From Massariosphaeria phaeospora (Eukaryota; Ascomycota; Dothideomycetes; Pleosporales), in assembly GCA_011032825.1 (NCBI GenBank), contig JAADJZ010000030.1:488282-552281 (forward strand): a stretch of DNA of 64,000 nt, read 5' to 3'. Positions within the stretch are counted from its first letter, which is position 1, and each line of letters opens with the position of its first letter. Both the position numbers and the translations under genes were made by a program. A model generated the notes under the pieces. That model was not told the origin of the DNA. It saw nothing but the letters and a program-made list of their open reading frames with translations, and did not search any database. Below, one piece after another: positions 5,412 through 63,920 of this stretch.

Positions 5412-5499
5412 TACGTAGGAAGTAGAGTTTGGTAAAAGCTTAGCAAAAGTAATGCACGAACCTGTGTAATGCACGAACTCGTAAAGTACGTTACTACTA

Positions 5500-6894
5500 T
5501 TACTATTACTAGTTTATTAGCCGTAGAGTTTTCTATACAATAAGTTTGATTTCTACTACTAAGCGTTACTTAGAAAAGAATAAGCTTAGCTACAATATTT
5601 TCAAGCTAAGCACGACACTAAAAGCAAAGCTAAAGAGTACTATTTACAACGTTTTAGTAGCTAGTAGCAAGCTCGTTTTGCAAGCAGTTGCAAATAAGCT
5701 TAGTAATTTTAATATTTACTACTTTAAGCTCGCAGCTGTTAGGTAGCTTATTAAGAATAATTACCTACTTTCTAAGTTTAAAAAGCTAGCTTTTTAACGC
5801 TTTATACGCTTTGCTAACTTGTTAGCTAAAAACGCTTTATAAGCGTTTTATAACAGCGTCTCGCGCTACGTTATACGCTTATACGATTATTTTAAGTTAC
5901 TAGTTGTTATAAAGCTATTACACGCAATAAGCAAAGTACACCTAAGCTTTAACAAATAAACAACAAAAAGTAGCAAAAAAAGCTTTTTTAGTATTGTTGC
6001 TTATTACGTTAGAGCTAATAGCAAGCTTTGCAACTTGCTTATTACGCTACTTTAGCTTACAAGCGCTTACTTAAGCGAGAAAATAGCTAAAGTAGTGCTA
6101 ACAAGTTTGCAGAACTTTGGCATAAGTATACGCAATATTAGCTATTTCGTTTTTAACAATGCGAGCAATAACGATACGGCTATTAAAGCTATCGCGCAAT
6201 TGCCTAAGTAAAGCTTTAATGCTATTTACTATCGTTTTCGCTGCGGTTTTTATACACTTAACTTTATAAGCTAGATACTTCTTTAAAGCAAGAAAGTAAA
6301 AGCTTTTAACAACAATTACGCTATATTTTATATAGTAGAAAAAACGCAGCTTCTAAAGAACTAGCAACGCGATAAGCTATTAAGCGTACTTTTTAGCGTT
6401 ATTACTTTTATCAAAACACCGTAGTAGTACAAGCTTTTTGAAAATTTTCAACGCTTAGCTTAACGCGAGCTACTTACTAACAAGTAAAAAATACTTAAGC
6501 TTATTAAGCTAGTTGTTACACGCTAGAACTTGTACTACTTATACTTTAAGCGCGCTGTTAAACTGCAAGTAGTATGTAATAAGCTAGAAGCTTTATAAAT
6601 TACTTTAGTTGTAAAACTTTAGTAGATCTTAGAGCTAATATATAGCGCTTAAGTAAGCTTTGTACTTTTTCGAGTAAGCTTCGTAAACTTGCTAGCTTAG
6701 TATATTAACGATATATTACTTGTAGCTACAAACGCTTTAGGCTTCTAGTAGAGTACTAATAGCTACTTAGCAAGAAGTATATAAAGTTACTTCGCTTTCG
6801 CTGTAAATAAACTTTATTGAATTTATTATATTCTTTATCTAGAACATGCTTGTAAAAGCTAAGCGAATTTAAAAAAGTTGTTTATTAAGCTTAG
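5500..6894 (+). pseudogene. hAT-family transposase, RIP-inactivated
   Basis: Reading through RIP stops from about 5546 gives a hAT transposase: ...STTKRYLEKNKLSYN..., then LLHAISKVHLSFN, the region equivalent to DGWTTKGGKKGFFSIVAYYV, and SYFVFNNASNNDTAIKAIA, typical of the hAT catalytic RNase-H fold. hAT enzymes mobilise DNA transposons with 8-bp target duplications. The C-terminal dimerisation region (about 6570-6800) is degraded. The element stops at the start of LTR C (6895). A rearranged copy of its 3' end sits inverted at 12831-13136. The N-terminus and terminal repeats could not be placed confidently. Confidence 0.75.
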
Positions 6895-7396
6895 TGTTAC
6901 GAATAGAGATAATACTAGGTATCGTAGACTAAGCAACAACGTAGAAAAGTTGTTAAAACTTGCAAGCTTGCAAAACAAAAGTACAGCAATGCGCAAAGCA
7001 GAATTAAGTTACTAGTTACGTAATAGTAATTAGTGCGATTAAAGCTTTAGCAAACTAAGTATACTAAGCAGCGAGCGCTTAGCTTGCTTAGAGTGCTTAG
7101 CAACTAAGTATACTAAGCAAACTAAGTAGAACGCTTTTAGCAAAGAATTATAGAACTATATAGATTAGTAGAATTTCTTTTACAATTTAAATTCTTTGTA
7201 GTTAACTCTTTTAAGTATATTTTATACATAGATTGAATCTATAGGCAACAAATTGTTACTTTGTTATTCTATTAAAAATAAAATTAAAATTGTTTTTTTT
7301 GTTGTCTTTAAGCTTTTCGAACATAGAACAATTTTTTAAGCAGAATTTCTAAGTCTAATTGCAAGTACCTTTAGTAAAAAAACACTTTTAATAACA
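6895..7396 (+). repeat. 5' LTR of chromovirus copy C
   Basis: About 502 bases, TGTTACGAATAG... to ...TAATAACA, heavily RIP-mutated. It shows the same internal repeat block as LTRs A and E. Compared with its partner at 13851-14361, nearly all differences past position 45 of the LTR are C to T or G to A. Confidence 0.88.
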
Positions 7397-9700
7397 CTTT
7401 AACTACTTTAGGTTTAAAACTAAAATAATATAGCAACTTTTACGAGCTTACGTACAACGAGTAGTAGCGTTACTATACCTACAACGAACTTAGCAGCTGT
7501 AATAGCAAAGCAAGCTAATTAGATATAGCAGCAAGTAGAATAAATTTAAAAACTATTAGTAGTAGTTACGAAGCTTTAAAGTAAGCAAAAAGAAAAGTTA
7601 GCAAAAGCTTTTTTCTTAAAGAAGTATAGCAAGAGAAAGAAAAACTTAAAACTTTTTTTACAAACGTTAACTTTTACTACTGTTATTATAGCAACAGCTT
7701 TTACATAGATTAAAACAAAATCTTAGTAGCTAGAATGCATATAAAAGACAATGTAGTAGAATAGTTTTAGCTATACGCTAAAAACTACGTTACGCACGTA
7801 AAAAACGTAAAAAAAATAAAGCTAAACACAAAGCGCATTTTTAAAAACTAAAAGTTATTTAAGCAAAAACTTTATATAATCTACAGCGAAGTAAACGAAA
7901 CGCAGCAAGTAATAAACAAGCTAAAACTACTTAGACAAAAAAGCTTAGCTAGCGAATACACAATTAAATTTAAAAAAATTTAAGCTAAAGTAGATAACGT
8001 AGGAGAACGCAGTTTGTGCGAGTTTTACTACGCAAAGTTAAAAAAACACGTAAAAAATAAAATTTGTTAAAACAAAAAACTAAAAGAACTTAACAAGTTA
8101 ATTAAAACTATAGTACAAATTAACAACTAACTATAGCAACAATAGTAAAAACGCAAGTTTACTATTAAACTATACATACGCCTAGTAGCTACGATTAAAA
8201 AAACTTATTACTACAACCTAATAGATATCGACAGCGTTAAACGAGTTTAGAACAACAAACTACTACAAAAGCAGTTTAACAAAAAGAACGCTACTTTAAC
8301 AAAGCAAAAACTTAAAGACGAGTTATTTAAAAAAGAACGCTAAAGACGTTACAATAACAAAGTATGTTTTTAATACAGCAAAAACAAATACTTTTGCAAA
8401 AACTACTTAGAAACACAATAGAAAGTAGCAAGCGCACAAGCTGCTACTATTGCTATAGTACAACTACAGCAAGTAGCTACGCTATACTCAAAAAACCTTA
8501 AAAAATTAAAAAACAATTAGATTTAAGTAGAAAGTTTTAAAAACGTTACAAAGCTAACAAACAAAAACAATAAAAAACTATTAACTTTACAAGTTTAGAA
8601 AATTAACGAATAGCTATAAAACTACAAATGCTAGATGTGTAGCTAAAAAACTTACATTGCTTAGTATTGCAAGAACAAGTTTTATACGCTTTAAATTAAA
8701 GAACTACAAAAATAAAAAGTTAAAAACGCAGCAATAGCACAACAAAAGCTAAAAAAAAAAAAATATAATTCGCAGATTAAGAAAACTATAGAAACCTACT
8801 TTAGCACTAGTGCAATAAAAAAAACTGCGTATACTACGCAAACAATAGAATTTTTACTTAGCAATAGCTAAAATTACTATTACACGTTTTGCTCGAAGAT
8901 AGCAAGTGTATAGTAACAAAATGCTACGTACACAACTACAACAACTAGTTTAAAAACTATAGCAGCAGCTGCGAATAGGTATAGTGTTATAATAAAAAAT
9001 ATTAAACACACTAGTTTTGCAAGCATATTACAAAATAGTAGCTTATAAGTTTAAAAAATAAAAACTACTTAAAATGCAACAATAAATTATGCATAGAAAA
9101 CTACGATACGTGCTAAGTAGCACGCTAGCTTTTCTATACTTCAAAATGCACTATCTATTAGCTATAGAAATATGCAACAAAATAGAATTTTAAAAATTAA
9201 AACTACAACAAATATCTACAGCTATAGAAATGTTTTATTAACTAATACAAGTACTACGAGCAATAGAACATTCTAAAAAAACAAGCTTTAAAAGCTTTTT
9301 TAGCAAAAAACTAGTAGGCTACTAGACTTATAGTTAGAATAGTATAAATGCTCTTAGCACAACTATACAAAACGTATAAAAAACGCAACTAAAATAAAAT
9401 TACATAAAAGTAAAAGCAAAAGTTGCAAGTTAAAAGCTTACCGCGCTACTTAATAGTAAAGCTGCCTAAACATTAGTTTCTTTAGAATAAGTAAAAAGAA
9501 ACAGAATACTTTACTAAGTTAAAAGTTAACTAATACGAATAGTGTTAGCTAACGAACAACTACTAGAATATAAAAACAGTTTAATTAACTTAAAAACTTA
9601 AAAAGTTAAGTTAAAAGTTGCAAGCATTAGGCACTAACAGCGCATTAATATTATAAACTTTAAAAGTTCTAACATGTATATTAGGTACAACTAGCTACAA
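7397..9700 (+). pseudogene. Chromovirus copy C gag region, RIP-inactivated
   Basis: This region follows the 5' LTR and is co-linear with copy E 50671-53000. Restored only at the level of motifs, it shows Lys/Glu-rich helical sequence and cysteine/histidine clusters, e.g. C-x2-CSRTTYIAQHC in copy E near 51900, compatible with gag nucleocapsid. There are dozens of in-frame stops in all frames. The gag/pol boundary is approximate. Confidence 0.6.
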
Positions 9701-9749
9701 AAACACAACTTTAATATTAATTAAGAAAACAAAACAATACGCAGCTAAA

Positions 9750-12700
9750 GGCTTAAAAAGAAAGTTACTATAGTACAACAAAACAAATTAACAATTTAAA
9801 GCTTACTTAAAAATAAAAGAATTAGTCTAATAGCACTTTACAAGATCGCGAGAATTTGTAAAAAAAACTCTTAGCAAATAGGCGTTATATAGATACAACA
9901 AGTTGCGCTTTTAGTAAACAAACTACAATTCAACTCTCTAAAGAAATAAAAAAAGAAGTTTAAAAACTTTTCTACTAAATACTAAACAGAGTTTAAAAGC
10001 TTTTTAAAAAAAAATAAAAAGCACAACTTAGCAAACTACTAAAAATAGAATTACAAAATTATTCTTAAAAAAAGAACAAAACTGCGACTAAAACTAATGT
10101 ATTCTTTAACTTATAACTAGTAAAAAAAATAAAAAAAATACATTTAAAAGAATATCTAGCAAGAAAATATACAACTAAGCGAAAGCTTAATAGCTTCGCT
10201 AATATTGTTTGTACTAAAGAAAAACGAAGAATTGAAACTATGCGTAGACTATTAACAGCTTAACAACGTTACACAAAAAAACTAATACTTACTACTACTT
10301 ATTTAAAAGCTTATAGATTAACTTTAAAAAGTAAAATAAATTACAAAACTCAACGTACAAGATAGATACTATCGCATTAAAATTGCAAAAAAGCACGAAT
10401 AGTTAATAGCTTTCAAAACTTAATACAAACTTTATAAGTACTAAGTTATGCTATTTAAATTAACTAATGCTTTAGCTACGTTTTAAGCTTTAATTAACAA
10501 AGCATTATACAAATACTTAGACATTTTTGTTATAGCGTACTTAGACAACGTATTAATATACTCTAAAAAAACGCTCGAAGAACATTAGAAACATGTTAAA
10601 AAAGTGCTACAAAAAATAAAGCAGTACTAGCTACTACTCTACTTAAAAAAAGTTAAATTTTACGTTACAAAAACTAGCTATTTTAGATTTATTATTTTAA
10701 AAGAAAGTATGTTAATAGACTTAAAGAAAATTTAGACTGTACAAAAATAGCTAACTTTTAAAACAGTAAAAAACGTGCAGTTTTTTTTTAAAATTTGCTA
10801 ACTTTAATTAAAAGTTTATTAAGAATTACTCTAAGACTACGACACCGCTTTTAAAAGTTACTAAAAAAAATAAAAAGTTTAAATAGACAAAAGTACAAGA
10901 ACAAGCGTTTTAAGAACTTAAAAAAAAGTTTACTACAGCACTAATGCTACAAATGCACAACCTAAAAAAAAAAACTTAAGTAGAAACTAATGCTTTAGAC
11001 TACGCATTAAAAGCGATACTTTAACAACAATGCAACAATAGAAAATAAAAACTAGTGTTTTACTATTCTAGAAAGTTCTTAAGAGCAGAACTTAACTACA
11101 ATGTTTACAATAAAAAGCTATTAGCAATAATAAACGCTTTTAAACAATAAAAAGCATAGCTAAAAAAGCAAAGCATTAAGTACAAGTGTACTTTAATTAC
11201 TAAAACCTTACTAGCTTTACTACAACTAAAAAATTAAATAAACAACAAGTTAAATAAGCTAAATTTATAGTAGATTACGACATTAAAATTTACTATTGCA
11301 AAGAAACTAACAACAAAGCCGCAAACGCGCTTAGTTAAAGATTAGATTTTATAGAAACTAACAAACTAGTTACGCATAACTTAATATTACAACGAAACTT
11401 AAACAAAACTTTCAAATACAACTAACTACAATTAGCTAAAATAGCTAAAGTTACAAGCATCAAGGAAAAAATGCACTAAAAATAGAGTAAAAACGACTAG
11501 CAAAGATAGATAGTTACAAATAACACTTAAGCTATATAGTTTATTTAGAAATTACATACTTTACAAGCATACAAATACCTAAGAATTAACAAAATAGTTT
11601 AACAAATTTTAAACGAGTACTTAATGCTCTATGTACAAAATATAGTTTAGAAAGCAATAAGCAACTATTTAGATTGTTTAAAAAACAAACCTAAAAAATA
11701 TAAGCTCTACGAATTACTTTAACTACTAGAACTACTCTTACGCTTATAGATTAGCGTTACAATAAACTTTATAGTAAAGCTTTTAAAATTGTTGAAACTC
11801 AAATTAGCACGGCTATGCAACTCGATCTTGGTAATTGTAAATTAATTAACTAAAAAATTACATTTCGTACTAATAGAAAAGTTAATAACAGCAGAAAAAA
11901 TAGCTTACGAGGTTACTAAAACGCTTGTTGCTAATTACGAATTGCTAGAATAGTTTATTACAAATAAAAACAAGCTGTTTACATTAAAGTTTTAGAATAC
12001 GTTCTTAGCTTAGTTAAAAGTTGCAAAAAAACTATTAACTAGCTTCTACTCGCAAACAAACGGCTAAACAAAACAAACAAACTAAACGCTAGAATAGTAT
12101 TTGCAAATGTACACTAATAAGTTGCAAAACAACTAAGTTAAACTTTTGCTAACAGTACAATTAGCATACAATAGCATAAAGTTTACAACAATAAAACACT
12201 TGCTATACTACGCAAACTATAGATATAAGCTAGTAGCTTATTAAAATCTAAAGAACATTAAAAGCATTTTGCTAGCAGCAAACAACAAGGCTTTTAAAAT
12301 GCAGAAATTATACGACAAATTAAGTAAACAAATTGCTTAAAAGAACTTTACAACAGCTAAGTTAGCAAATAAAAAAACGCTTAAAAAACTAACTTTTAAA
12401 AAGAGAAATAGAGTTTTCTTTTTACGAAAAAACCTAAAAACTAAACAACTATGCAACAAGTTAAACAACTTTTAAATAAAGCTATTTAAAATTTTAAAAG
12501 TTAAAGAACTTGTATTATTTAAATTACAGCTACTTGCAAGCATGCGCATACATCTAGTTTTTTACAAATTACTTTTAAAACTAGCACTACTAGACGCTAA
12601 AGTAGCAACTAATATTAAACTTAAAAACAAAAAGTACAAGGTTGAAAAAGTTAAAAACCTATAAAAGTTTAAACGTTAGTAGAAATACTTAGTTAAATAG

Positions 12701-12830
12701 CAAAAATAGCTAAAAAGCTAGAATACATAGAAACTAATACAAAATTTTACAAACTGCAAGGAACTAGTGCGAACATATTACTAGCAAAATTTAGAAGCAA
12801 GAAATCTAAGTAAAAGAAAATCGCCAAAGA
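9750..12830 (+). pseudogene. Chromovirus copy C pol (RT, RNase H, integrase, chromodomain), RIP-inactivated
   Basis: Stop-ridden reading frame with Ty3/gypsy polymerase blocks in the order reverse transcriptase, RNase H, integrase, chromodomain. The RT catalytic box reads YLDNVLIYS (10538-10564) where active chromoviruses have YLDD, a G to A change. RNase H shows TNALDYAL and a YSRKFL block. Integrase runs from about 11500 to the LAYNS block near 12170. The final chromodomain-like segment is interrupted downstream by a hAT fragment. Copy E has the same order and the same YLDN. Confidence 0.8.
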
Positions 12831-13136
12831 TAGTAGGTTCTAGATAAAGAATGTAATAAATTCGATAAAGTTTATTTACAGCAAGAGTAGAGCAACTTTA
12901 TATACTTTTCGCTAGACGGCTATTAGTACTCTACCGAAAGCTATTAGTGCTCTATCGAAAGCCTAAAGCGTTTGTAGCCGTAGGCAATATATTGTTAATA
13001 TACCAAGCTAACGAGCTTGCGAAGCTTACTCGAAGAAGTGCAAAGTTTACCTAAGCGCTGTATATTAGCGTTGAGATCTACTAACGTTCTACGACTAAGG
13101 CAATTCATAGAGCTTTTAGCCTATTACACTAAGTTC
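12831..13136 (-). mobile_element. Inverted fragment of the hAT element 3' end inside copy C
   Basis: About 300 bases matching the reverse complement of roughly 6560-6860, e.g. the shared stretch around TTCTAGATAAAGAATGTAAT. Copies A and E lack it at this position, so it is an insertion in copy C. It is flanked by TCTAAG (12805-12810) and ACTAAG (13128-13133), possibly a decayed target duplication. It is less AT-shifted than its surroundings in places. A 60-codon open frame across it (13017-13199) has no sign of being a gene. Confidence 0.7.
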
Positions 13137-49555: not shown

Positions 49556-50067
49556 AGCGCGACCTCGACTTAGCCCTAAGTTGGAGCTGGCTAGGGACTA
49601 GATCTACGCGTATCCGCGTGTATACCTTATTACACTCTCTCTAGGTTAATTAAACTTTAGAGTATTAGTCGAGGTACGTTTCCACGCTTGTATTAAGCTA
49701 TAATTTAAACTTGTTACTTATAGCAATGTCTTGCACTGTTGCTAAAATTTGCATTAAAATTGTATACGTAGTCGTAGTGTTTAAAGTTAAAGTTACAAAG
49801 CTTAGTAAAGCGACGTAGTAAAAAGAAACGCAAGTATAACGTTACGCAACTGTAACACAAATAACAAACGCAGCAAAAAAAACTTATGCAAGCAGCGCGT
49901 TTGTATAGCAAAGGCATAGTAGATAGATTTGTAGCTAGTAGATAATATAAGCAGCATTTACACAACGCGCAACTTGCAACGCGCAACTTGCACTTGTTGC
50001 AAAATCTATTAACCTATGTTTGTCAAAGCTTATCTACGCTATAGCAAAGACAAATATTAAGTTCTAG
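49556..50067. other. Transition into AT-rich RIP-mutated DNA
   Basis: GC content drops at about 49.6 kb. No readable gene; the sequence contains a duplicated AACGCGCAACTTGC motif at 49967-49990. It probably represents the 5' part of the zinc-finger gene remnant that follows, but I cannot read it. Confidence 0.4.
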
Positions 50068-50169
50068 CATTTTAAGTATCTAGCAGAGTACTGCATAGCT
50101 GTATGCAAAGAATGCAAGCATAGCGTGCTACTTAGCTATATTAAAAGTTACCTGCAACGCGCGCACAAG
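50068..50169 (+). pseudogene. Remnant of a C2H2-type zinc-finger protein (OrsD/DUF3505-like)
   Basis: A short readable frame: HFKYLAEYCIAVCKECKHSV then LLSYIKSYLQRAHK. The C-x2-C pair, LxxYIKSxLxxAHK pattern (with one His to Tyr change expected from RIP) and the preceding YLxxY closely resemble the N-terminal zinc-finger module of OrsD/DUF3505 proteins, which are often encoded near fungal chromosome ends. The remnant is interrupted at its 3' side by LTR E. Confidence 0.5.
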
Positions 50170-50670
50170 TGTTACAAACAAAAACGATACTAGGTATCGT
50201 AGACTAAGCAACGACGCAGAAAAGTTGTTAAAGCTTGCAAGTTTGCAAAACGAAAGTACAGCAATGCGCGAAGCAGAATTAGGTTAGCAGTTACGTAATA
50301 GTAATTAGTGCGATTAGAGCCTTAGCGGACTAAGCACACTAAGCGGCGAGCGCTTAGCTAGCTTAAAGCGCTTAGCAACTAAGCACACTAAGCGAACTAA
50401 GCAAAACGCTTTTAGCGAAGAATTATAGAACTATATAGATTAGCAGAATTTCTTTTATAGTTTGGATTTTTTGTAGTTAACTTTTCTAAGTACATTTTAT
50501 ACATAGATTAGATCTATAGGCAACAGATTGTTACTTTGTTATTCTATTCGAAATAGAATTGAAATTGTTCTTTTGTTGTTAGCAATCTTTTCGAACACAG
50601 AACAATTCTTTAGGCGGAATCTCTAAGTTCGATAACTCGTACTTTTAGTAAAAGAACACTTCTAATAACA
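50170..50670 (+). repeat. 5' LTR of chromovirus copy E
   Basis: 501 bases, TGTTACAAACAAAAACGATA... to ...TCTAATAACA, RIP-mutated but somewhat less than LTR C. It interrupts the zinc-finger remnant after AHK. Confidence 0.88.
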
Positions 50671-53600
50671 CGTTAACTACTTTAGGTTTAGAACTAAAAC
50701 AATATGGCAACACTTACGAGCTTACGCACAACGAGCAGCAGCGTTACTGCACCTACAACGAATCTAGCAACTGTAATAGCAAAGCAAGCTAATTAGATAC
50801 AGCAGCAAGTAGAATAGATTTAAGAACTATTAGCAGCAGTTACGAAGCTCTAAGGTAGAATAAAAGAAAAGTTAGCAAAAGCACTCTCCCTAGAGAAATA
50901 TAGCGAGAGAAAAAAAAACTTAAAACTTTTTCTTACTAACGTAAACTTTTACTGCTGTTATTATAGCAACAGCTTTTACACAGATTAAAACAAAATTCTA
51001 GCAGCTAGAATGCACATAAAAGACGACGCAGCAGAATAGTTTTAGCTCTACGCTAAAAATTACGTTACGCACGCAGAAAACGTAAAGAAAATAAAGCAAA
51101 ACACGAAGCGCATTTTTAAAAACTAGAAGTTGTTTAAACAAAAACTTTACACGATCTACGGCGAAGTAGACGAAACGCAGCAAGTAATAAACTAACTTAA
51201 ACTACTTAGGCAGAAAAGCTTAGCTAGCGAGTACACAATTGAATTTAAAAGAATTTAGGCTAAGGTAGACAACGTAGGAGAACGCGGCTTATGCGAGTTT
51301 TACTACGCAAGGTTAAAAAAACACGTAAAAGATAAAATCAGTCGAAACAAAAGACTAAAGAAACTCAACGAGTTAATTAAAACTGCGGTACGAATTAACA
51401 ACTAACTATAGCAACGATAGCAAGAACGCAAGTTTACTGTTAAACTATACATACGCTTAGTAGCAACGATTAAAAAAACCTATTACTACAACCTAATAGA
51501 TATCGACAGCGTTAAACAAGTTTAGAACAACAAACTACTACAAAAGCAGTTTAACAAAAAAAACGCTACTTTAACAAAGCAAGACCTTAAGAACGAGCTG
51601 TCTAAAAAGAAACGCTAGAAGCGTTACAACAATAAAGTATGTCTCTAATGCAGTAAAGACAAATACTTTTGCAAAAACTGTTTAGAAACACTACAGAAAG
51701 TAGCAAGCGCGCAAGCTGCTACTATTGCTATAGTCCAACTACAACGAGTAGCTACACTATATTCAAGAATCTACGAAGAACTAGATAGCGAGTGAGTTAA
51801 GGTTAAAAACTCGATAGCAAAGAAACTGTTAGACTAGGAAACAAAACCTACTCATCTACAAGCAAAAGAGATTACAAATTAACTTTAAAACTACGAGTGC
51901 TAGATGTGCAGTAGAACTACCTACATTGCCTAGCACTGCGACCAACAGTTTAAAGAACTACAAATTAAAAAACTACAAAAATAAGAAGCTGCAAAAGTAG
52001 CAATAGCACAACAAGAACTAACAGAAAAGAAAATAAAGTTCGCTAATTAGAACAATTACGGAAACTTACTTTGGCACTAGTGCAACGAAAAGAACTGTGT
52101 ATACTACGCAGACAATAGAATCTTTGCACAACAATAGCTAAAATTACTATTACACGTTTTGCTCAAAGACAGCGAATGTACAGTAACAGAATGTTACGTA
52201 CATAACTACAACAATTAGTTTAAAAACTACAGCAGCAGCTGCGCATAGGCATAGTGTTACAACAAAAAGTATTAAACACACTAGTCTAGCAAGCATATTA
52301 CAGAATAGTAGCTTATAAGTCTAAAGAACAAGGACTACTTAAAATGCAACAACAAATTATGCATAGAAAACTACGAAACGTGCTAAGCAGCACGCTAGCT
52401 TTTCTGCACCTAAAAATGCGCAATCTACTAGCTATAGAAATACGCAACTAAATAGAATCTCAAGAATTAAAACTACAGCAAATACTTACAGCTATAAGAA
52501 TGTTTTATCGACTAGTGCGAATACCACAATCAATGGAACATCTCAAAAAAACAAGTTTTAAGAGCTTTCTTGGCAAAAAACTAGCGGGCTACCAAACCTA
52601 CGGTTAGGATAGTATAAGTGCTTCTAGCACAACCGTACAAAGCGTACAAAAAACGCAACTAGAATAGAATTACATAAAAGTAAAAGCAAAAGTCGCAGGC
52701 TAAGAGCTTATCGCACTACTTAATAGCAAAGCTGCCTAAACATTAGTCTTCTTAGGATAAGTAAAAAGAAACAGAATACTTTACTAAGTTAAAGATTGAC
52801 TAATACGAACAGTGTTAGCTAACGAACAACTACTCGAATATAGAAACAGTTTAATCAACTTAAAAACTTATAAAGTTGAATTGAAAGTTGCGGGCATTAG
52901 GCATTAACAGTGTATTAATATTATAAACTTTAAAAGTTCTAACATGTATATTAGGTACGACTAGCTACGAAAACACAACTTTAACATTAATTAAGAAAAC
53001 GAAACAATACGCAGCCGAAGGCTTAGAAAAAAAGTCGCTGTAGTACAACAAAACAAATCGACAATTCAAAGCTTACTCGAGATCGAGAGAATTAGTTTAA
53101 TTTTACACTACAAGATCGCGAGAATCTGTAGAAAAAACTCTTAGCAAATAGGCGTTATATGGATACGACGAGTCGCGCCTTCAAAAATAAGCAAACTACA
53201 ATTCAACTTCTTTAAAGAACAGAAAAAAGAGTTTAGAAACTTTTTTACTAAATACTAAGCAGAGTTCGAAAGTTTTTTTGAGAAAAACGAAAAGCACGAC
53301 CTAGCAGACTACTAAGAATAGAATCACAAGATTATTCTTAAAGAAAAAACAAAACTGCGACTAGAACTAATGTATCCTCTAACTTACGACTAGCAAAAGA
53401 AATTAAAGAAATACATTTAAAAGAATATCCAGCGAGAATACATACGACCAAGCGAAAGCTTAATAGCTTCGCTAATATTGTTTGTACCTAAGAAAAACAA
53501 GAAATTGAAACTGTGCGTAGATTTTTGACATCTTAACAACGTTACACGAAAAAACAAATACCTACTACTGCTTATTCAGAAGCTTATAAATCAACTTTAA

Positions 53601-56083
53601 GAGGTAAAATAAATTACGAAACTTAACGTACAAAACGAATACTATCGCATTAGAATTGCAAAAGAGCACGAATAGATAACAGCTTTTAAAACTAGATATA
53701 GACTTTATAAGTACTAAGTTATACCGTTTAAATTAACCAATGCCTTAGCTACGTTTTAGGCTTTAATCAACAAAGCACTACACGAATACTTAGACATTTT
53801 TGTTACAACGTACTTAGACAACGTATTGATATACTCTAAAAGAACGTTCGAAAAACATTAGAAACATGTTAAGAAAGTGCTACAGAAGATAAAGCAGTAT
53901 TAACTACTACTTTACTTAAAAAAATGTAAATTTCACGTTACAAAGACTAGCTATCTAGGATTTATTATTTCAAGAAAAAGCGTGTTTATAGACTCGAAGA
54001 AAATTTAGACTGTACAAAAGTAGCTAACTCTTAAAACAGTAAAAAACGTGCAATTCTTTTTAAAATTTGCTAACTTCTATTAAAAGTTTATTAAGAATTA
54101 CTTCAAGACTACGACACTGCTTTTAGAAGTTACTAAGAAAGATAAAAAGTTCAAATAAACAGAAGCACAGAAACAGGCGTTTCAAGAACTTAGAAAGAAG
54201 TTTATTACGGCACTAATACTACAAATGCACAACTTAGAAAGAAAAACTTAAGTAAAAACTAATGCCTTGGATTACGCATTAGAAGCGATACTCTTACAAC
54301 AATGCAACGACAGGAAATAGAGACTAGTGTTCTACTATTCTAGAAAGTTCTTAGAAGTAGAACTCAACTACAACGTTTACAACAAAAAGCTATTAGCAAT
54401 AATAAACGCCTTTAAACAATAAAAAGCGCAACTAAAAGAGGCAAGACATTAAGTACAAGTGTACTTGAATTACTAGAACCTTACTAGCTTTACTACAACT
54501 AAGAAATTAAATAGACAACAAGTTAAATAGGCTGAATTTATAGCAGATTACGATATCAAGATTTACTATCGCAAAGAAACCGACAATAGAGCTGCAAACG
54601 CGCTTAGTCGAAAATTAGATCTTATAGAGACCAACAAACTAGTTACGTACAACCTAGTATTACGACGGAACTTAGACGAAACTCTCGAATACAACTAACT
54701 GCAATTAGCTAAAATAGCTAAGGTTACAAGCATCAAAAAAAGAATGTACTAAAAATAGAGCAAAAACGACTAGCAAAGATAGATAGTTACAAACGACACC
54801 TAAGCTATATAGTTTATCTAGAAATTACATGCTTCACGAGCATACAAACACCTAAGAATAAACGAAATAGTTCAACAAATCTCAAACGAGTACTTAATAC
54901 TTTATGTACGAAACACAGTTTAGAAAGTAGTAGGCAACTGTTTAGATTATTTTAAAAACAAACCTAAGAGATACAAGCTCTACGGATTACTCTAACTGCT
55001 AAAACTACTCGCACGCCTATGAATTAGCGTTACGATAGACTTTATAGTAAAGCTTTTAAAATCGTTAGAACCTAGATTAGCACGGCTATGCAACTCGATC
55101 TTAGTAATCGTAGATTAATTAACCAAAGAATTACATTTTGTACCAACAGAAAAGACAATTACGGCAGAAAAAATAGCTTACGAGATTACAAAGACGCTTG
55201 TTGCTAATTACAAATTGCTAGAACAGTTTATTACAAACAGAAACAAGCTGTTTACATTAAAGTTTTAGAATACGTTCTTAGCCTAGTTAGAAGTTGCAAA
55301 GAAGCTATTAACTAGCTTTTACTCGCAAACAAACGGCTAGACAGAACAAACGAACTAAACACTAGAATAGTACCTACGAATGTACACTAACAAGCTGTAA
55401 AACAACTAAGTTGAACTTTTGCTAACAGCACAATTGGCATACAACAGCACGAGGTTTACAACGATAAAACACTCGCTATACTACGCAAACTATAGATATA
55501 AGCTAGTAGCTTATTAAAATCTAAAAGATATTAAAAGCATTTCGCTAGCAGCAAACGATAAGGCTTTTAGAATGCGAGAATTACACGACAAATTGAGCTA
55601 ACGAATTGCTTAAAAGAACCTTACGACAGCTAAGTTAGCAAACAAGAAAAAGCTTAAGAAACTAACTCTTAAAGAGGGAGATAGAGTTTTTCTCTTACAA
55701 AAAAATCTAAAAACTAAACAACTATGCAACAAATTAAACAACTTCTAAATAAAACTATTTAAAATCCTAAAAGTCAAAGAACTTGTATTATTTAAACTAC
55801 AGCTACTTGCAAGCATGCGCATATATCTAGTTTTTTACAAATTACTTCTTAAACTAGCACTGCTAAACGCCGAAGTAGCAACTAATATTAAGCTCAAAGA
55901 CGAAAAGTACGAAGTCGAAGAAGTCAAGGACTTACAGAAGTTTAGACGTTAGTAGAAATACTTAGTTAAATAGCAAGAATAGCTAGAGAGCTAGAATACA
56001 TAGAAACTAATACGGAATTTTACAAACTGCAAGGAACTAGTACGAAAGTATCACTAGCAAAATCTAGAGGCAAAGAATTCGGT
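50671..56083 (+). pseudogene. Chromovirus copy E gag-pol, RIP-inactivated, lacking its 3' LTR
   Basis: Co-linear with copy C: gag (about 50671-53000, with a C-x2-C...HC cluster near 51900), RT with QILTTL-like and YLDNVLIYS (53811-53837; D to N in the catalytic box), RNase H (TNALDYALEAILLQQ), integrase (YSQTNGQTERTNQ, LAYNS) and the chromodomain-like end (KYEVEEVKDLQKF). The last recognisable residues match copy A up to QQNLEAKN near 56080. The roughly 700 bases of 3' non-coding sequence and the 3' LTR are missing; TTAGAG repeats follow immediately. Fewer G to A changes than in copy C in several blocks. Confidence 0.85.
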
Positions 56084-56136
56084 TAGAGTTTAGAGTTAGA
56101 GTTTTAGAGGTTAGAGTTAGAGTTAGAGTTAGAGTT
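56084..56136. repeat. TTAGAG-type telomere-like tract
   Basis: About eight irregular units of GTTAGA/GTTTAGA/GTTAGAG between the cut end of copy E and the start of the subtelomeric element. Similar two-unit TTAGAG sequences precede each later element copy (60007-60020 and 63871-63884), the last within RIP-free DNA, so TTAGAG is not simply a RIP product of TTAGGG. Confidence 0.8.
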
Positions 56137-56999
56137 GTATGTAAAGTAAAATAATTCGATTGGATTTGGTCTTTCTGCAAAGAAGAGTCGTTGAAATGCC
56201 TTGGTTCGCAAGACACTTTTCGTTTCTTGTTGTATCTACAGAAAGAAACTTATTAGGAATGAGAGAAAAGCTGTTTATATACATTAGAATTAGAGGGAAA
56301 GTTTCTCTAAGTTGTTTACTTGCTGCGCTGCTAGAAGTTTAAGCTTTCGGCTGCTGCCTAGCCTTTGCAGAGGCTAAGTGCGAGTAGAGGAGCCAAGACA
56401 ATGCAAAACGTTGTGCTGTAGAACAAGCAGCTCTAAAAGTCTGTTAGTAATTGGTAGGTACTAGAGTTACTTAGGGTTTGAGTTAGAGTTAGCGCCTTAG
56501 CGCTAGGCTCTTACCCAAATCTTTTGTTTCCAAAAACCGCAATAGTTGACCTAGATCGAAACAATACTTTTATATTACTAACAGACTTTTTCTACAAGCT
56601 AGCAGCTTTCTTTTGAAACAAGTTGTTTTCACGCGTAGTTGTCCGCTGCGCGAGTGTTTCTCTAGATTTTCAAGCGTCCGCGCCGTTGCTAGCACTTTTA
56701 TTCGTCTATCTAAGTACTTTACAAGCGCAGCAGTCGTTCTGCTGTTTCTTAGAGTCCTTAAATCGCAAAAGCGACGCTACTCCGCGACGCTCTCTTTCTA
56801 GAAGAAGTATTATACTCGAAGAAGCATGCGAAGCAGTGAAACTAGCAAGAGCAGCAATAGGTTTTACAGGTTTTACATCTTGAACCTAACTCAACTTCTG
56901 CGACGCACCTCCTCTAGAGGAAGCGCATGCAAAGGAAGAGAAAAAAACAAGAATGCTATGCGCTAAAGCTGCAACTGCTTGTCACTACAGCTTAGAGCG

Positions 57000-58850
57000 A
57001 AGAGTAGAATAATCTAGTATCTAAAAAAGACACATTTACTAACAGCTTCTTAATGTCGGTTTCTTCGATTTCTTTGTAAAAGATGCTTCGATTTACTGCC
57101 CAAACGAGATTCCACATGAATCTAGTCCGTTTTTTGGCAACAATACACTGCGGTAGGTACGGTAGGTTTAAGAATCTAGCTCAAACTTATTTCGATCGCA
57201 TGTCGTTTTAGATGGTGGAGGAAGAAACCTAGTTCTACACAAGGTTATATTTAGAGACGGCAATAATTGCATCACGTGCGACCCTAGTTTTTAGCTTAAA
57301 ACTAGAAAAGTACGATCGCTATTGGACCTGTCGTCTTTAAGAGTGTAACACTTGTTTTAGCTAGCCGCGCGCTCGAAGCTTCGACATAAATGTCGCTTTT
57401 TATGTTAGAAAGTATATTTTCTTGTAGCATATTGCGCGGATCCGGCAGAGCTCGCCTTTAACTAGCCCTTTTTTAACTAAAAAAGAGTAGAAGCTTGCCT
57501 ATAGAAGGTATTGATAGTAGTTTAGCACTTTGTTGAAAGGTGCGAAACACACTGCTGCCAACTTAAAGTGCGTGTAGAAGCGTACGTTAAGGAACGAGAG
57601 TTCGTAGGCAAAGTGCGTTTACAGGATTTGCAAGCTTAAAACGCGAATAGCTTCGAAAGCCTCGTTAGATAAGTTAAGGACAAGAATATTATTAATATAC
57701 TAGCATAAAACTAAGGCGTACGTTGATAGAAGTATAGCTATTTGTAGTAGGCCATGAAGAGATTTGCAAAGACAAGAGCGCAATGTAACTCTATTAGGAC
57801 CTCGTCAACTTGGCAAACTAATTTAGGCTCAATCTGAAATAGCGCTTCGTGCCAAATAAAATCGGAAGCTTCGAGAATTTAGTTTCTAGTTTGCTCATTA
57901 TACTAGTCGCTGTTTTTAAGAATAAACTAAAGAGCATGCACGAAATTTTTCTAACAGATGTTTGTATACATGCTTGCAACGTCGCTAGTGTGTAGTCGCA
58001 TAGAAGTTGTGTTGCTACAGTTGAATTCTGCAACTTTTAAACATAGATTCGGCTGCTTCGCATATCTACAGAAAAGAGCGTTGAACTGGTAGTAGCATAG
58101 CGTGCAGTATTCTGCCTAGAGGTCCTAGCACATAGAAATGCATTAGTACAATAAGCTTGATTTTCTATAAACTTTTGTAGATCTTAGGGATGCTATAGAG
58201 AATTGGAATTGCCTTTATTTGTATAAGCTAAACGCTAAAAACGTAATACCCGCTTTCGTGTCTAGATGCAGGTAATATAAGCTATTCTAATGCACACAAA
58301 GAAGTTAATGCTTAAAGTGTTAAACAGCACTTTGATAGAAGTTATCGAACTCTGCTTTTTTTAGTGCTGAATTTAAATTTGTGGTATGTAGAAAAAGCTT
58401 CTACTTGTGTTTCGTACTACTTACGAGTAACAACTAAAACTCTAAAGTTTTTGTTAGTAATTAGTGCTAGAAGCTGAGCTTTTAATAGCCAATCGCGCAG
58501 ATTTTTCGAAGGACTACGACTCGAAAGAGAGCGTCGTTCTTAGAGTTAGGTCGAGTATAGGTTGCCTGTAAAGCGCACAGCGCAAGGCCTTTCTCTTAAC
58601 CTAAATACTGTTTGCGAAACTAATCGTCGTTAATGCCTGTGTCCTAGCTAGTTAACAGATACAGAATAGATTTGTGCTAGCTAAGCAGTACGTCTGTACC
58701 GTTGCTTCAAAAATGCGTTATAAAACGACACTTTCGACTTAGTTGCTCAAACTAGTCTAGCGCTACTTGTTGATAAGCGGCTTGAGAAACAAAAACTTTA
58801 GATTTACGCTAAGCGTGTACTCGATGTCTATAGAAGTCTAACACTATCGA
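57000..58850 (-). pseudogene. Penelope-like reverse transcriptase, unit 1
   Basis: Minus-strand reading (frames shift at small indels) shows the RT blocks in order. IPILYSIPKIYKSL...VLGPLGRILHA spans about 58210-58110 (PKIYK at 58174-58188). DVASMYTNI (57957-57983) contains the first catalytic Asp. VDEVLIEL..ALVFANLFMAYY is about 57740-57811. YINNILVLN (57673-57699) stands where YIDDILVLN is expected. FLNVRFYTHFK and then VKKGLVKGELCRIR (about 57475) form the thumb, and CIVAKKRTRFMWNLVWAVNR (about 57090-57150) follows. PKIxK with RPIV-like context, YTNI and KKGxxKGE are characteristic of Penelope-like RTs, which are related to telomerase. No GIY-YIG endonuclease is seen downstream. Stops and the DD to NN change make it inactive. 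Confidence 0.75.
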
Positions 58851-58975
58851 GTTTGTATACACCTAGGCGCTAGTTTATAAGCGTCTCAAACTAATGCGCA
58901 AGCTAGGTGCGCCAGATGTACATTATTTAAAATAAAGAGTTTTAAAGTTAAAAGAACTTCAGAGGCAGCGCGCCG

Positions 58976-59980
58976 TTTGCATGAAGCAATAGTGCATTTA
59001 GCGCTTTTTCTGCTGCTTTTTAGAGAAAGTGCCGCGTTTTTTGTTGCTTTCTTAGCGGCGCTTCGACACCTTAGCGGTGTTCTTCGTCTGGTTTTTGGTC
59101 TTCGAAGAGACCAGCTTCTTTTTGACCTTTTTCTCGATTTCGATTTAGCCTGCTTATTCTTCTTGAATTGTTGCTAGCGTTTGCCGAATTTTTTGATAAA
59201 CTCGGCCAAAGCTTTCTTGTTGCTAGGCAGGCGCTAGTAGCTTCGACCTAAGCTTTTTTCTGCGTTGCCGATTGTTTTTTTTAGTTTCGATTTGTCGGTA
59301 GGCAGCGTTGGCTCTAATTGAAATAGTTGTTTTGACTAATAATTCTTTGCACGGTTGGTTTATTAGGAGCGTAAAAGCTTTAAAGCTGATGTAGTCGTTA
59401 TCCGCTGCTAATTTCTAGCCGTTAAGAAGAGCTTGGTCTGCGCGTCTAGATCGCACAATTGTTCAAGAATTTCGATCTCGGCTTTCTTAATTTCAATTAT
59501 GCGTTCCAGCGCTGCTTTCTTTGATACTTTAAAAGCTAAGGAGAAGTCTTTAGGAGCGAGTTGCCTATGTTCGGTAGCTAGTTTTAAGACTTAAACAGAG
59601 GAGGCTTAGAAGAATTTTAGTTTAAAAAAATTGAAGTTTGTTTTTGCTAAAGGGTTGGTAATGGACTTCGCAAAGGAGTTTTCTTATTCTTTTAAGACAA
59701 CAATAGCGTTGGCTATTTTAAAGTGCGCTTAAACGATTTGTTCAAGTAACGTCTTCGTTCGTTTCTAAACAAGGCAAGAACAAGCGCTACAAGTTGAGCA
59801 GTGAATTTAGCGTTAACAATTGTTTAACAAAGCTGCCGATAAGCTTATTAGCAGTTTTTAGATTAAACTCGGCGTCTAGGTGTTGATAGTAGAAGAAGCT
59901 TCAACACTAGACATTTTCTTTATTAGCTTATTCTAAGTCGGACAGCTAGAGTAGGACTAGAATCGTAGTGCTTGTAACAT
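58976..59980 (-). pseudogene. Lys-rich coiled-coil ORF1, unit 1
   Basis: RIP-mutated counterpart of the ORF starting at 63843 in unit 2; the ATG is at 59980. It is helical with many Lys/Glu/Ala residues and ends in basic clusters (KKSKKRR-like near 59.07 kb). Several TAG/TAA stops at likely CAG/CAA positions. Coiled-coil first ORFs occur in some Penelope-like elements; a nucleic-acid-binding role is an inference. Confidence 0.55.
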
Positions 59981-60899
59981 AGTAGAGTACAAAAGAATCG
60001 AGGTAGATAGAGTTAGAGTTGTATGTAAAGTAAAATAATTCGATTGAATTTAGTCTTTCTGCAAAGAAGAGTCGTCGAAATGCCTTGGTTTGCAAGACAC
60101 TTTTCGTTTCTTGTTGTATCTACAAAAAGAAACTTATTAGAATAAAAAAAAGAGCTGTTTATATACATTGAAATCAAGAGAAAGTTTTTTCAAGTTGTTT
60201 ACTTGCTGCGCTGCCGGAAGTTTAAGCTTTTAGCTGCTGCCTAGCCTTTGCAAAAGCCAAGTGCGAGTAGAGAAAGCTAAGACAATGCAAAACGTTGTGC
60301 TGTAGAAACAAGCAGCTCTAAAAGTCTGTTAGTAATTGGTAAGTACTAGGGTTACTTAGGTTCGAGTTAGAGTTAGCGCCTTAGCGCTAGGCTCTTACCT
60401 AAATCTTCTGTTTCTAGAAAACCGCAATAGTCGACCTAGATCGAAACAATACTTTCATATTACTAACAGACTTTTCCTACAAGCTAGCAGCTTTCTTTTG
60501 AAACAAGTTGTTCTTACGCGTAGTTGTCCGCTGCGCGAGTGTTTCTCTAGATTTTCAAGCGTCCGCGCCGTTGCTAGCACTTTTATTTGTCTATCTAAGT
60601 ACTTTACAAGCGCAGCAGTGTTTTGCCGTTTTTAGAGTTCTTGAATCGCAAAAGCAACGCTACTTCGCGACGCTCTCTCTCTAGAGAAAGTATTATACCC
60701 AAAGAAGCATGCGAAGCAGTGAAACTAGCAAAAGCAGCAACAGGTTTTACAGTTTTACATTTTAAACCTAACTCGACCTTGCACGCACTTCCCTTAAGGA
60801 AAGCGCATGCAAGAAAGAGAAAAAAACGAGAATGCTATGCGCTAAAGCTGCAACTGCTTGTCACTACAGCTTAGAGCAAAGAGTAGAATAATCTAGTAT

Positions 60900-62650
60900 C
60901 TAGAAAAGACACATTTACAACAGCTTTTTAATGTGGTTTTTTCGATTTCTTTGTAAAGAATGCTTTGATTTACTGCCGAACGAGATCTACATGGATCTAG
61001 TTCGTTTTTTGGCAACGATACACTGCGGTAGGTACGGTAGGTTTAAAGTCTAGCTAAACTTATTCTAATCGCATGTCGTTTTAGATAGGGAGGAAGAAAC
61101 TTAGTTTATACAAAGTTATATTTAGAACGGCAATAATTGCATTACGTGCGACCTTAGTTTCTAGCCTAAAACTAGAAAAGTACGATTGCTATTAGACCTG
61201 CTGTCTTTAGAAGTGTAACACTTGTTTTGCTAGCCGCGCGCTTAAGCTTCACATAAATGTCGCTTTCTATGTTAGAAAGTATATTTTCTTGTAGCATATT
61301 GCGCGGATCCGGCAGAGCTCGCCTTTAACTAGCCTTTTTTTAACTGAAAAAGTAAAAGCTTGCTTATAGAAAGTATTAATAGTAGTTTAGCACTTTGTTA
61401 AAGAGTGCGAAACACACTGCTGCTAACTTAGAGTGCGTGTAAAAGCGTACGTGAGGAACGAAAGTTCGTAAGCAAAGTGCGTTTACAGGATTTGCAAGCC
61501 TAAAACGCGGATAGCTTCGAAAGCCTCGTTAGATAGGTCAAAGACAAGAATATTATTAATATACTAGCGATAAAACTAAAGCGTACGTTGATAGAAGTAT
61601 AGCATTTGTAGTAAGCTATAAAGAGATTTGCAAAAACAAAAGCGCAATGTAACTCTATTAGAACCTCGTTAACTTAGCAAACTAATTTAGGCTTAATCTA
61701 AAATAGCGCTTGTGCCAAATAAAATTAGAAGCTTTGAGAATCTAGTTCTAGTCTGCTTATTATACTAGTCGCTGTTTTTAAGAATAAACTAAAGGGCATG
61801 CACAAAATTTTTTAACAGATGTTTGTATACATGCTTGCAACGTTGCTAGTGTGTAGTCGCATAGAAGTTGTGTTGCTACAGTTAAATCTGCAACTTTTAA
61901 ACACAAATTCCAGCTGCTTTCGCATATCACGAGAAAGAGCGTTGAACTAGTAGTAGCATAGCGTGCAGTATTCTGCCTAGAGGTTCTAGCACATAGAAAT
62001 GCATTAGTACAATAAGCCTAATTTTCTATAAGCTTTTGTAGATCTTAGAAATGCTATAGAGAATCAAGATTGCTTTATTTGCATAAGCTAAACGCTAAAA
62101 ACGTAATACTGCTTCGTGTCTAGATGCGAGTAATATAAGCCGTTTAATGCACACAAAGAAGTTAATGCTTAAAGTATTAAACAGCACTTTAATAAAAGTT
62201 ATTAAACTTTGCTTTTCTTTAGTGCTAAATTTAAATTTGTAGTATGTAGAAAAAAGCTTCTACTTGTGTCTCGTACTACTTACGAGTAACACTAAAACTC
62301 AAAGTTTTTGTTAGTAATTAGTGCTAGAAGCTGAGCTCCTAATAGCTAATCGCGCAGATTTTTCGAAGGAACTACGACTCGAAAGAGAGCGTTGTTTCTA
62401 GAGTTAAGTTGAAGTATAGGTTGCCCGTAAAGCGCACGCGCAAGACTTTTCTCTTAACTCAAATACTGTTTGCAAACTAATTGTCGTCAATGCCTATGTC
62501 CTAGCTAGTTAACAGATACAAAATAAATTTGTGCTAGCTAAGCAGTACGTTTGTACCGTTGCTTTAAAAATGCGTTATAAAACGACACTTCTAACTTAGT
62601 TACTTAAACTAGTCTAGCGCTACTTGTTAATTAAGCGGCTTGAAGAATAA
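60900..62650 (-). pseudogene. Penelope-like reverse transcriptase, unit 2
   Basis: Same motif series as unit 1 with different RIP changes: ILYSISKIYKSL (Pro to Ser), K-I-R-L-I-V, DVASMYTNI, a VxxV...ANLF block, YINNILVLN, the KKGxxKGE block near 61.32 kb and AKKRTxF near 61.0 kb. Unit 2 keeps a G near 61568 that unit 1 lacks beside the YINN box, giving FYR-stop-YINN and implying an ancestral FYRWYIDD. Confidence 0.7.
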
Positions 62651-62859
62651 AAACTTTAGATTTACGCTAAGCGTGTACTTAATGTTTATAAAAAGTCTAA
62701 CACTATTAAGTTTGTGTACACCTAGGCGCTAGTTTATAAGCGTTTTAAACTAATGCGCAAGCTAGGTGCGCTAGATGTACATTATTTAAAATAAAAAGTT
62801 CTAAAGTTAGAAGAACTTTAGAGGCAGCGCGCCGTTTGCATAGAGCAATAGTGTATTTA

Positions 62860-63843
62860 GCGCTTTTTCTACTGCTTCTTAGAGAAAGTGCCGCGTTTTT
62901 TGTTGCTTCTTTAGCGGCGCTTCGACACTTTGGCAGTGTTTTTCGTCTAGTTTTTGGTTTTCGAGAGACTAGCTTCTTTTTGACTTTTTTCTAATTTCAG
63001 TTTAGCTTGCTTATTCTTTCTAGATTGTTGCTAGCGTTTGCTAATTTCTTTGATAAACTTGGCCAAAGCTTTCTTGTCGCTAGGCAAGGCGCTAGTAGCT
63101 TCGACCTAAGCTTTTTTCTGCGTTGCCGATTGTTTTTTCTTAGTTTCGATTTGTCGGTAGGCAGCGTTGGCTTCAATTGAAATAGTTGTTTTAACTAATA
63201 ATTCTTTGCACAGTTGGTTTATTAAGAGCGTAAAAGCCTTAAGGCTAATGTAGTCGTTATTCGCTGCTAATTTCTAGCCGTCGAGGAGAGCCTTAGTCTG
63301 CGCGTCTAGATCGCACAATTGTTCAAGAATTTCGATTTTAGCTTTCTTGATTTTAATCATGCGTTCTAGCGCTGCTTTTTTTGATACTTTAAGAGCTAAG
63401 GAGAAGTCTTTAGAAGCGAGTTGCTTATGTTTAGTAGCTAGTTTTAAAACTTGAACAAAGAGAGCTTAGAGAGATTTTAGTTTAGAAAGATTAAAGTTTG
63501 TTTTTGCTAAAGAGTTGGCAATGGACTTTGCAAAGAAGTTTTCTTATTCTTTTAAGACAACAATAGCGTTGGCCATTTTAAAGTGCGCTTGAACGATTTG
63601 TTTAAGTAACGTTTTCGTTCGTTTCTAAACAGGGGCGGGAACAAGCGCTACGAGTTAAGCGGTGGATTTGGCGTTGACAATCCGTTTAACAAAGCTGCCG
63701 ATAAGCTCATTAGCAGTTTTCAGATTGAACTCGGCCGTCTGGGTGTTGATGGTGGAAGAGGCTTTAACACTAGACATTTCCTCTATTGGCTCATCCTGAG
63801 TCGGACGGCTAGGGTGGGACTGGGATCGTGGTGCTTGTGACAT
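62860..63843 (-). pseudogene. Lys-rich coiled-coil ORF1, unit 2 (start intact, then RIP stops)
   Basis: ATG at 63843 gives MSQAPRSQSHPSRPTQDEPI, then EFNLKTANELIGSFVKRIVN, and the first stop comes at 63655 (TAA where CAA is likely). Reading on: LVALVPAPV, KRTKTLLKQIVQAHFKMANA, LATKHKQLASKDFSLALKVSK, ERMIKIKKAKIEILEQL, ending in a very basic region (KNKQAKLKLEKSQKE). The N-terminus is disordered and acidic, the rest predicted coiled coil, about 310 residues. Its start is only 78 bases from the TTAGGG array. The first 62 codons are RIP-free. Confidence 0.65.
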
Positions 63844-63884
63844 GGTAGAGTACCAAAGGAATCGAAGTGGATAGAGTTAGAGTT

Positions 63885-63920
63885 GTATGTAAAGTAAAAT
63901 GATTCGATTGGATTTGGTCT
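63885..63920 (-). mobile_element. 36-bp stub of a third Penelope-like element
   Basis: GTATGTAAAGTAAAATGATT continuing to GGATTTGGTCT repeats the first 36 bases of units 1 and 2 (their 3' ends on the coding strand) and then switches directly to TTAGGG. In the full units the same place continues with TTCTGCAAAG. Confidence 0.85.

Follow-up and report, generated by a model that had tools for sequence, protein, structure and literature searches.

A putative telomere-primed, Penelope-like retroelement arrayed at contig ends of the ascomycete Massariosphaeria phaeospora

What kind of sequence occupies the end of a contig in the ascomycete Massariosphaeria phaeospora, where two units of about 3.87 kb stand head-to-tail on the minus strand next to the telomere repeats, and how could it have come to lie there? 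The stretch of DNA analysed here (the window) comprises 64,000 nucleotides of contig JAADJZ010000030.1 (positions 488,282 to 552,281), and its end is the end of this contig (C24, 552281 bases). An earlier note, made from the letters of the window, had described the two units with their telomere-like junctions and had proposed a Penelope-like retroelement that adds itself to chromosome ends; the coordinates of units and junctions proved exact to the base. Unit 1 (56137..60007, minus strand) is a complete but mutated element with a GC content of 0.39, its 3' end at 56137 and its 5' end at about 60007, and unit 2 (60021..63871, minus strand) is complete and mutated as well, save for its last ~240 bases. 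To judge from their sequence, the two are very probably copies of an endonuclease-lacking, telomere-primed Penelope-like retroelement of about 3.9 kb with two open reading frames (ORFs). This kind of element is already known; its growth history in the present genome is unusually detailed.

Most copies in the genome are heavily C-to-T mutated (GC 0.33-0.40), and we read the coding content in a little-mutated one, L014 (C32:310533-314431). It carries a natural reverse transcriptase (RT) frame of 718 codons (ORF2, protein P0001) containing GDVASMYTNI, PKIHK, GVPMGLHCAPVFANLFM, RRYIDDILVL and KKGLVKGEL. The boxes that we take to be the consensus of Penelope-type RTs, DV.S.YTNI, YxDD and FLD...SxHP..K, all lie in this one frame. 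The motifs listed in the earlier note are indeed present on the minus strand of unit 1 (DVASMYTNI at 57957-57983, PKIYK at 58174-58188, YINNILVL at 57676-57699 and KKGLVKGEL at 57448-57474); what does not hold there is a common frame, and the three frames contain 75, 71 and 92 stops. Since L014 reads YIDDILVL intact in its open frame, the change from DD to NN in unit 1 is a mutation, just as had been supposed. The lysine-rich ORF of the note was recovered too: ORF1 precedes the RT frame, which overlaps it in another frame, has its ATG at element base 45, and its 224-aa piece P0002 contains 15% lysine. Mapped from L014 and taken to begin at the earliest ATG in frame, the ORF2 remnant of unit 1 extends over 56992..58926 (minus strand), the start of the open frame of L014 corresponding to 59144; the ORF1 remnant extends over 59001..59980 (minus strand). 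In unit 2 the corresponding remnants are at 60871..62785 and 62860..63843 (both minus strand), and the ORF1 start, MSQAPRS, is still legible at 63823-63843. A candidate -1 frameshift site, GGGAAAA at element bases 896-902 in the overlap of the two ORFs, is in the right phase in all three little-mutated copies; about 0.2 would be expected by chance (an estimate), and we do not claim it.

The RT protein matches Pfam RVT_1 with an E value of 4.9e-6, Pfam at E<=1 gave no endonuclease domain, GIY-YIG included, on four proteins, and a regular expression for GIY-YIG found nothing in the six frames of three little-mutated copies, in agreement with the earlier note. A viral-contig scan found no relative. 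BLASTP of P0001 against the telomerase of the host (TERT, encoded on C23) aligned boxes B-C only, over 58 positions, with an E value of 0.001 for that one pair. Could the element be a non-LTR element (LTR, long terminal repeat) of the CRE/SLACS clade, like MoTeR1 and FoTeR, which use a restriction-like endonuclease (REL) of their own to insert into telomere repeats? The A-box DVASMYTNI and the C-box YIDD are unlike the type found in long interspersed nuclear elements (LINEs), and the RVT_1 score is weak. The REL-type motif (CxxC...H...C, RHD, as given in PMC12857005) is absent from the 718-aa frame when searched by regular expression. These observations make CRE/SLACS membership very improbable, even though MoTeR1 and FoTeR occupy the same ascomycete niche, in the same orientation, with truncations and with a short telomere motif at their 5' ends (PMC12857005).

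Copies were searched for in the whole genome (42 Mb); the counts given are lower bounds, and contig ends are taken as proxies for chromosome ends. Unit 1 gave 25 BLAST matches including itself, and the 3'-terminal 600 nt of L014 gave 49, nine of them with at least 94% identity to L014 (on C32, C8, C31, C18 and C26, and one stub on C11). A 23-letter pattern of the 3' end was found, with at most three mismatches, at 50 places on 16 contigs, compared with none for the reversed pattern, so that the element is far from a chance resemblance. On the 15 long contigs all 46 of these 3' ends point inward, at no more than 31 kb from a contig end (39 within 13.1 kb, the farthest at 30 kb); zones of 31 kb at both ends of the 51 contigs together amount to 7% of the genome. 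The other four are on C46, which is 10.8 kb long and hence uninformative on position. Confinement to contig ends in one orientation is thus found genome-wide; of the findings that would have spoken against the proposal of the earlier note, neither a GIY-YIG domain nor frequent copies away from the ends turned up. The longest series are those of C11, with nine 3' ends, and C18, with eight. In the same genome (TTAGGG)3 has 198 overlapping matches on the plus strand versus two on the minus strand (places listed as far as C18); the left contig ends seem to be without telomeres, perhaps through a sequencing or assembly artefact.

At the 3' end the join to the telomere repeats is constant and in a single repeat phase: 45 of the 50 places match GTTRTATGTAAAGTAAAATRATT exactly (the search pattern itself includes GTT), and at least two telomere-type repeats, with at most three mismatches, adjoin 48 of the 50. 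In the window this join borders degenerate repeats of the TTAGAG type (56082..56136, plus strand), likely the former chromosome end that received unit 1. Repeats trapped between units, here and at inner junctions elsewhere, become TTAGAG; mostly it is the middle C of CCC that is altered, which makes buried telomere tracts themselves targets of mutation. On the other side, ten of the 12 readable 5' ends that are truncated within the body pass directly into telomere-type repeats (on C12, C13, C51 and C11, and two each on C26, C31 and C46). No two of these 12 truncations coincide, although two lie within ~10 nt of each other; the 5' counts cover the ends read, several others being cut by contig ends or unread. 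Absence of GIY-YIG, restriction to ends with the 3' side inward, and telomere repeats at 3' ends and truncated 5' ends are features of endonuclease-deficient telomeric Penelope-like elements, and the arrangement that the earlier note took to fit terminal addition recurs at other contig ends.

Complete 5' ends, that is, those of copies reaching the first bases of the unit, follow a rule of their own. In all 14 that were read, exactly two repeats are followed by the element's own 3' sequence, and in none of these 14 was a longer telomere tract seen to follow directly; the count leaves out C2:1245, a further candidate that matched with three mismatches and was unreadable. The piece outside the two repeats is a full unit in the case of unit 1 (repeats at 60008..60020, plus strand) and a truncated unit of ~3 kb on C2. 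Outside unit 2 it is a stub of 36 nt, the 3' end of a third copy (63885..63920, minus strand), joined through two repeats (63872..63884, plus strand) and followed by the terminal (TTAGGG)n of ~13 copies that ends the contig (63921..64000, plus strand). Further stubs measure 40 nt (C51), 22 nt (C18), 355 nt (C18, C31 and three on C11), 409 nt (two on C18), 532 nt (C8) and at least 333 nt (C32, reaching the contig end), the lengths on C11 and one on C18 being alignment coordinates. The rule amounts to a pseudo-LTR or HeT-A-like arrangement and is a new detail; tandem or partial tandem copies forming pseudo-LTRs are thereby found at every complete 5' end read.

Two candidate signals lie in the 3' region. 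L014 carries the telomere-like sequence CTAACCCTAACCC 355 nt from its 3' end (an internal seed; 56483..56496 in unit 1, ~355 nt from the 3' end, and 60367..60380 in unit 2, both plus strand), and six stubs break at it (those on C18 and C31 as read, three on C11 and one on C2 by coordinates). On C46 one stub breaks 6 nt beyond the seed, and another is cut thereabouts by the contig start. Healing by telomerase at the internal seed is the simple reading of the shared break point, but a single event may instead have been duplicated inside an array. A chance estimate for the shared 355-nt breaks assumes independence and an arbitrary n=30 and is illustrative only. The second signal is a TATA box, TATATAAA, 145 nt from the element's 3' end, a candidate promoter (56274..56281 in unit 1 and 60158..60165 in unit 2, both minus strand). 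A hammerhead-like core (CTGATGA, a 7-bp stem II and GAAA) begins at element base 3780 of L014, 25 nt downstream of the first base of the TATA box, and was equalled in one of 3000 Markov sequences; its counterpart in unit 1 runs from ~56256 downward and is mutated in the window copies. Stems I and III are not recognisable around the core.

Amplification by recombination has to be weighed against retrotransposition here. During telomere crises, a subtelomeric 4-kb block with telomere tracts at its borders could pass from one end to another by copying, and break-induced or rolling-circle replication could multiply it in tandem, the RT gene being a passenger. Such a spread has been proposed for a 4-kb RT repeat of Pyricularia oryzae, whose RT is closest to telomerase RTs, which has direct repeats, telomere tracts and tandem truncated copies, and which was amplified after deletion of TERT (PMC8381367). 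In our genome, C18 holds two consecutive modules of a unit and a 409-nt stub, and one break point is common to six stubs, both as expected from duplication; erosion would account for the 5' truncations. However, copying of a donor end would reproduce its truncation, whereas the 12 body truncations are at 12 places. Selection on the ORFs is also hard to explain for a passenger: across ten copies, changes other than C-to-T favour synonymous sites in both ORFs, and with transversions only, 16 of 42 are synonymous in ORF2 versus 18% expected (p=0.002) and eight of 24 in ORF1 (p=0.05). ORF1 was scored over element bases 45-886 and ORF2 over 1103-3040; a mixed-class dN/dS-like value of 0.21 lumps transitions with transversions, and we rely on the transversion-only test. 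There are thus signs of purifying selection on ORF2 and, weakly, on ORF1. We regard recombination with a passenger RT as improbable, and the two processes, retrotransposition and recombination, may act together.

If the arrays grew at their outer side, outer copies should tend to be younger. On C11, copies resemble the little-mutated one more closely the farther out they lie, with identities increasing from 81 to 94% (rho 0.92, n=9); on C31 the values climb in the same direction from 78 to 98% (rho 0.90, n=5). On C18, C2 and C26 the outermost copy has the highest identity without a significant trend, and on C46 the outermost is not the highest, so that the outermost copy is the least mutated at five of the six ends tested for an age trend. 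Four further ends that bear at least two copies, outside this test, show no rise (C51 87 and 87; C8 inner 99, outer 98; C32 100 and 100; C24 unit 1 89, unit 2 87).

From the observed position and orientation, the constant 3' join, the telomere tracts, the two-repeat rule, the signs of selection and the presence of a telomerase gene, we propose the following course of events. The element RNA, ending in an AACCC-type sequence, would pair with the G-rich telomere overhang, and the RT would extend the chromosome's own 3' end, so that each cDNA would form the new chromosome terminus, the element's 3' end facing inward. Host telomerase would re-cap incomplete cDNAs or eroded ends; here the joins are seen and the enzyme is the presumed agent. 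Repeated rounds would yield head-to-tail arrays in which the younger copies tend to lie outside. Transcription of a complete RNA probably begins within the 3' region of the outer neighbour, the least certain step, and if it does, complete copies carry two repeats and a 3' piece on their 5' side; this pseudo-LTR would supply a promoter and a buffer against erosion. A variant compatible with this scheme is that the RT jumps end-to-end to a second RNA whose 3' end bears two repeats. Fixed two-repeat joins would equally suit a fixed RNA 3' end, and the stub lengths vary as those of abortive second copies would, some being longer than a TATA-driven start permits. We consider this variant rather unlikely, since all 14 complete copies read would have to have jumped and a TATA box is present in the 3' region.

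Several observations weigh against telomere-primed addition of a Penelope-like element as set out above. The assignment to Penelope rests on motifs and on anatomy; the RVT_1 score of 26.8 bits is under the curated cut-off of 29.6, and matches in PDB, PADLOC, NCBIfam and PHROG are generic RT matches. None of the three little-mutated complete copies has both ORFs intact (ORF1 of L014 is interrupted by stops, ORF2 of the C8 copy by a single one, and the C18 copy is shifted in frame). One piece, C46:3339-4779, is without a 3' end, and two interior copies (C11:767005 and C21:573240) join a different subtelomeric repeat at their 5' side. The 5' side faces the telomere, so that its truncation would result from erosion followed by healing no less than from abortive reverse transcription. 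Only C11 and C31 show a clear age trend, and in the window unit 2 carries more mutations than unit 1 (87 versus 89% identity). A start immediately downstream of the TATA box, 145 nt from the 3' end, would not yield stubs as long as 355-532 nt; these call for transcripts that read through, for a jump of the RT from RNA to RNA or for another round of addition. Finally, a hammerhead search of four loci gave no match at E<=5 and none that reaches the Rfam threshold; in a short stretch Hammerhead_3 scores 13.5 bits with an E value of 3.8 (gathering threshold 48.5).

The mutations themselves show an unusual context. In eight mutated copies pooled and compared with the C32 copy, C was changed to T at frequencies of 0.35-0.81 in Y[C]N and 0.02-0.09 in R[C]N (Y, pyrimidine; R, purine), and the effect of the 3' base follows the order A>C>G>T. 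This C-to-T mutation, which resembles repeat-induced point mutation (RIP), appears to depend on a pyrimidine 5' of the C; it affects positions 1-13000 and 50001-63620 of the window as well as element copies elsewhere. RIP is usually defined by the 3' base (CpA), with TpCpG cited for Microbotryum (PMC4352252), and a matching 5'-pyrimidine signature in ascomycetes was found neither in one literature listing, nor in the passages of PMC4352252 concerned, nor by a term search of PMC7882544. The pattern is possibly of more interest than the element. AT-rich blocks of the window are depleted accordingly, the YC share of C being 0.19 (1-13 kb) and 0.30 (50-56 kb), compared with 0.50 in the GC-balanced part. 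RIP-like mutation and the GC/AT blocks by themselves suggest an ascomycete host. Beside the telomere, bases 63640-63880 of unit 2 are little mutated (GC 0.485, YC share 0.517) and the remainder of the unit is mutated; the terminal zone may be protected, or this patch may be younger than the rest. Further inward, 49552-50174 matches at 90% the sequence abutting the 5' end of the interior C21 copy, itself matching its C11 counterpart, and appears to be a second subtelomeric repeat.

How does the element compare with known systems? The earlier note had held such an element in an ascomycete to be notable, which is overstated: family 4 of Zymoseptoria tritici (Mycosphaerella graminicola) is a putative telomere-localised Penelope-like element with full-length copies of 3.4-3.5 kb (PMC4522978), so that neither the kind nor the ascomycete host is new. 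Like ours, it is limited to subtelomeres, its TTAGGG-bearing 3' end always points away from the telomere, it has full-length and truncated copies with 13 tandem cases, and it is without endonuclease in a fungus with a telomerase gene; it differs in having one to three TTAGGG copies at the 3' ends (PMC4522978). Sections 9 and 17 of that paper make no mention of the rule of two repeats and an own-3' stub or of an internal seed. The label is not uniform, as the repeat pipeline in PMC7181583 gives only one Penelope for Z. tritici. A further lead in Leptosphaeria maculans, 'RPP_Circe', was not used; no paper on it was found, and the main text of PMC4210507 contains neither Penelope nor Circe.

Athena and Coprina have no endonuclease, prime at chromosome termini and bear telomere repeats on truncated 5' ends (PMC3846280), as our element appears to do, and in the basidiomycete Agaricus bisporus Penelope elements have been linked to telomeres (PMC7473861). 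Canonical Penelope/Poseidon elements with pseudo-LTRs (pLTRs) share the tandem and partial tandem copies that form these, but possess their own GIY-YIG endonuclease and a protein-assisted hammerhead ribozyme (PMC11167929), neither of which is shown in the fungal element. MoTeR1 and FoTeR have the telomeric niche and the 5' end toward the terminus in common with it, whereas the REL endonuclease and the CRE-clade RT are theirs (PMC12857005).

The 4-kb telomere-bordered RT repeat of P. oryzae has the same anatomy, likened here by description, not by sequence. Its authors considered the LTR resemblance coincidental and suggested an rvt gene together with recombination (PMC8381367); the word 'Penelope' is absent from the text. 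From this comparison, the repeat of the foxtail strain looks like an unrecognised telomeric Penelope-like element. In M. phaeospora we have a well-preserved, apparently telomere-adding fungal retroelement, with little-mutated copies and with arrays in which mutation load marks age. It makes testable whether such an element rides on telomerase or helps to maintain chromosome ends once telomerase is failing, and also whether the crisis-amplified repeat of Pyricularia belongs with this kind.

In Drosophila HeT-A, a promoter in the 3' region serves the inner neighbour and is said to buffer erosion (PMC5537684), which is similar to what we suppose for the fungal element, whose promoter is a candidate. 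HeT-A is a non-LTR element that replaces telomerase (PMC5537684), whereas the fungal host has telomerase. We tentatively put forward, as possible though somewhat doubtful, that a telomeric Penelope-like element of a telomerase-positive fungus has converged on the HeT-A plan. The outer neighbour would provide the promoter, its 3' end with two repeats would form a renewable 5' buffer, and the internal seed would offer telomerase a fixed point at which to heal an eroding array without loss of the TATA region; the Pyricularia 4-kb repeat, which amplifies on loss of telomerase, would be an unrecognised element of the same kind.

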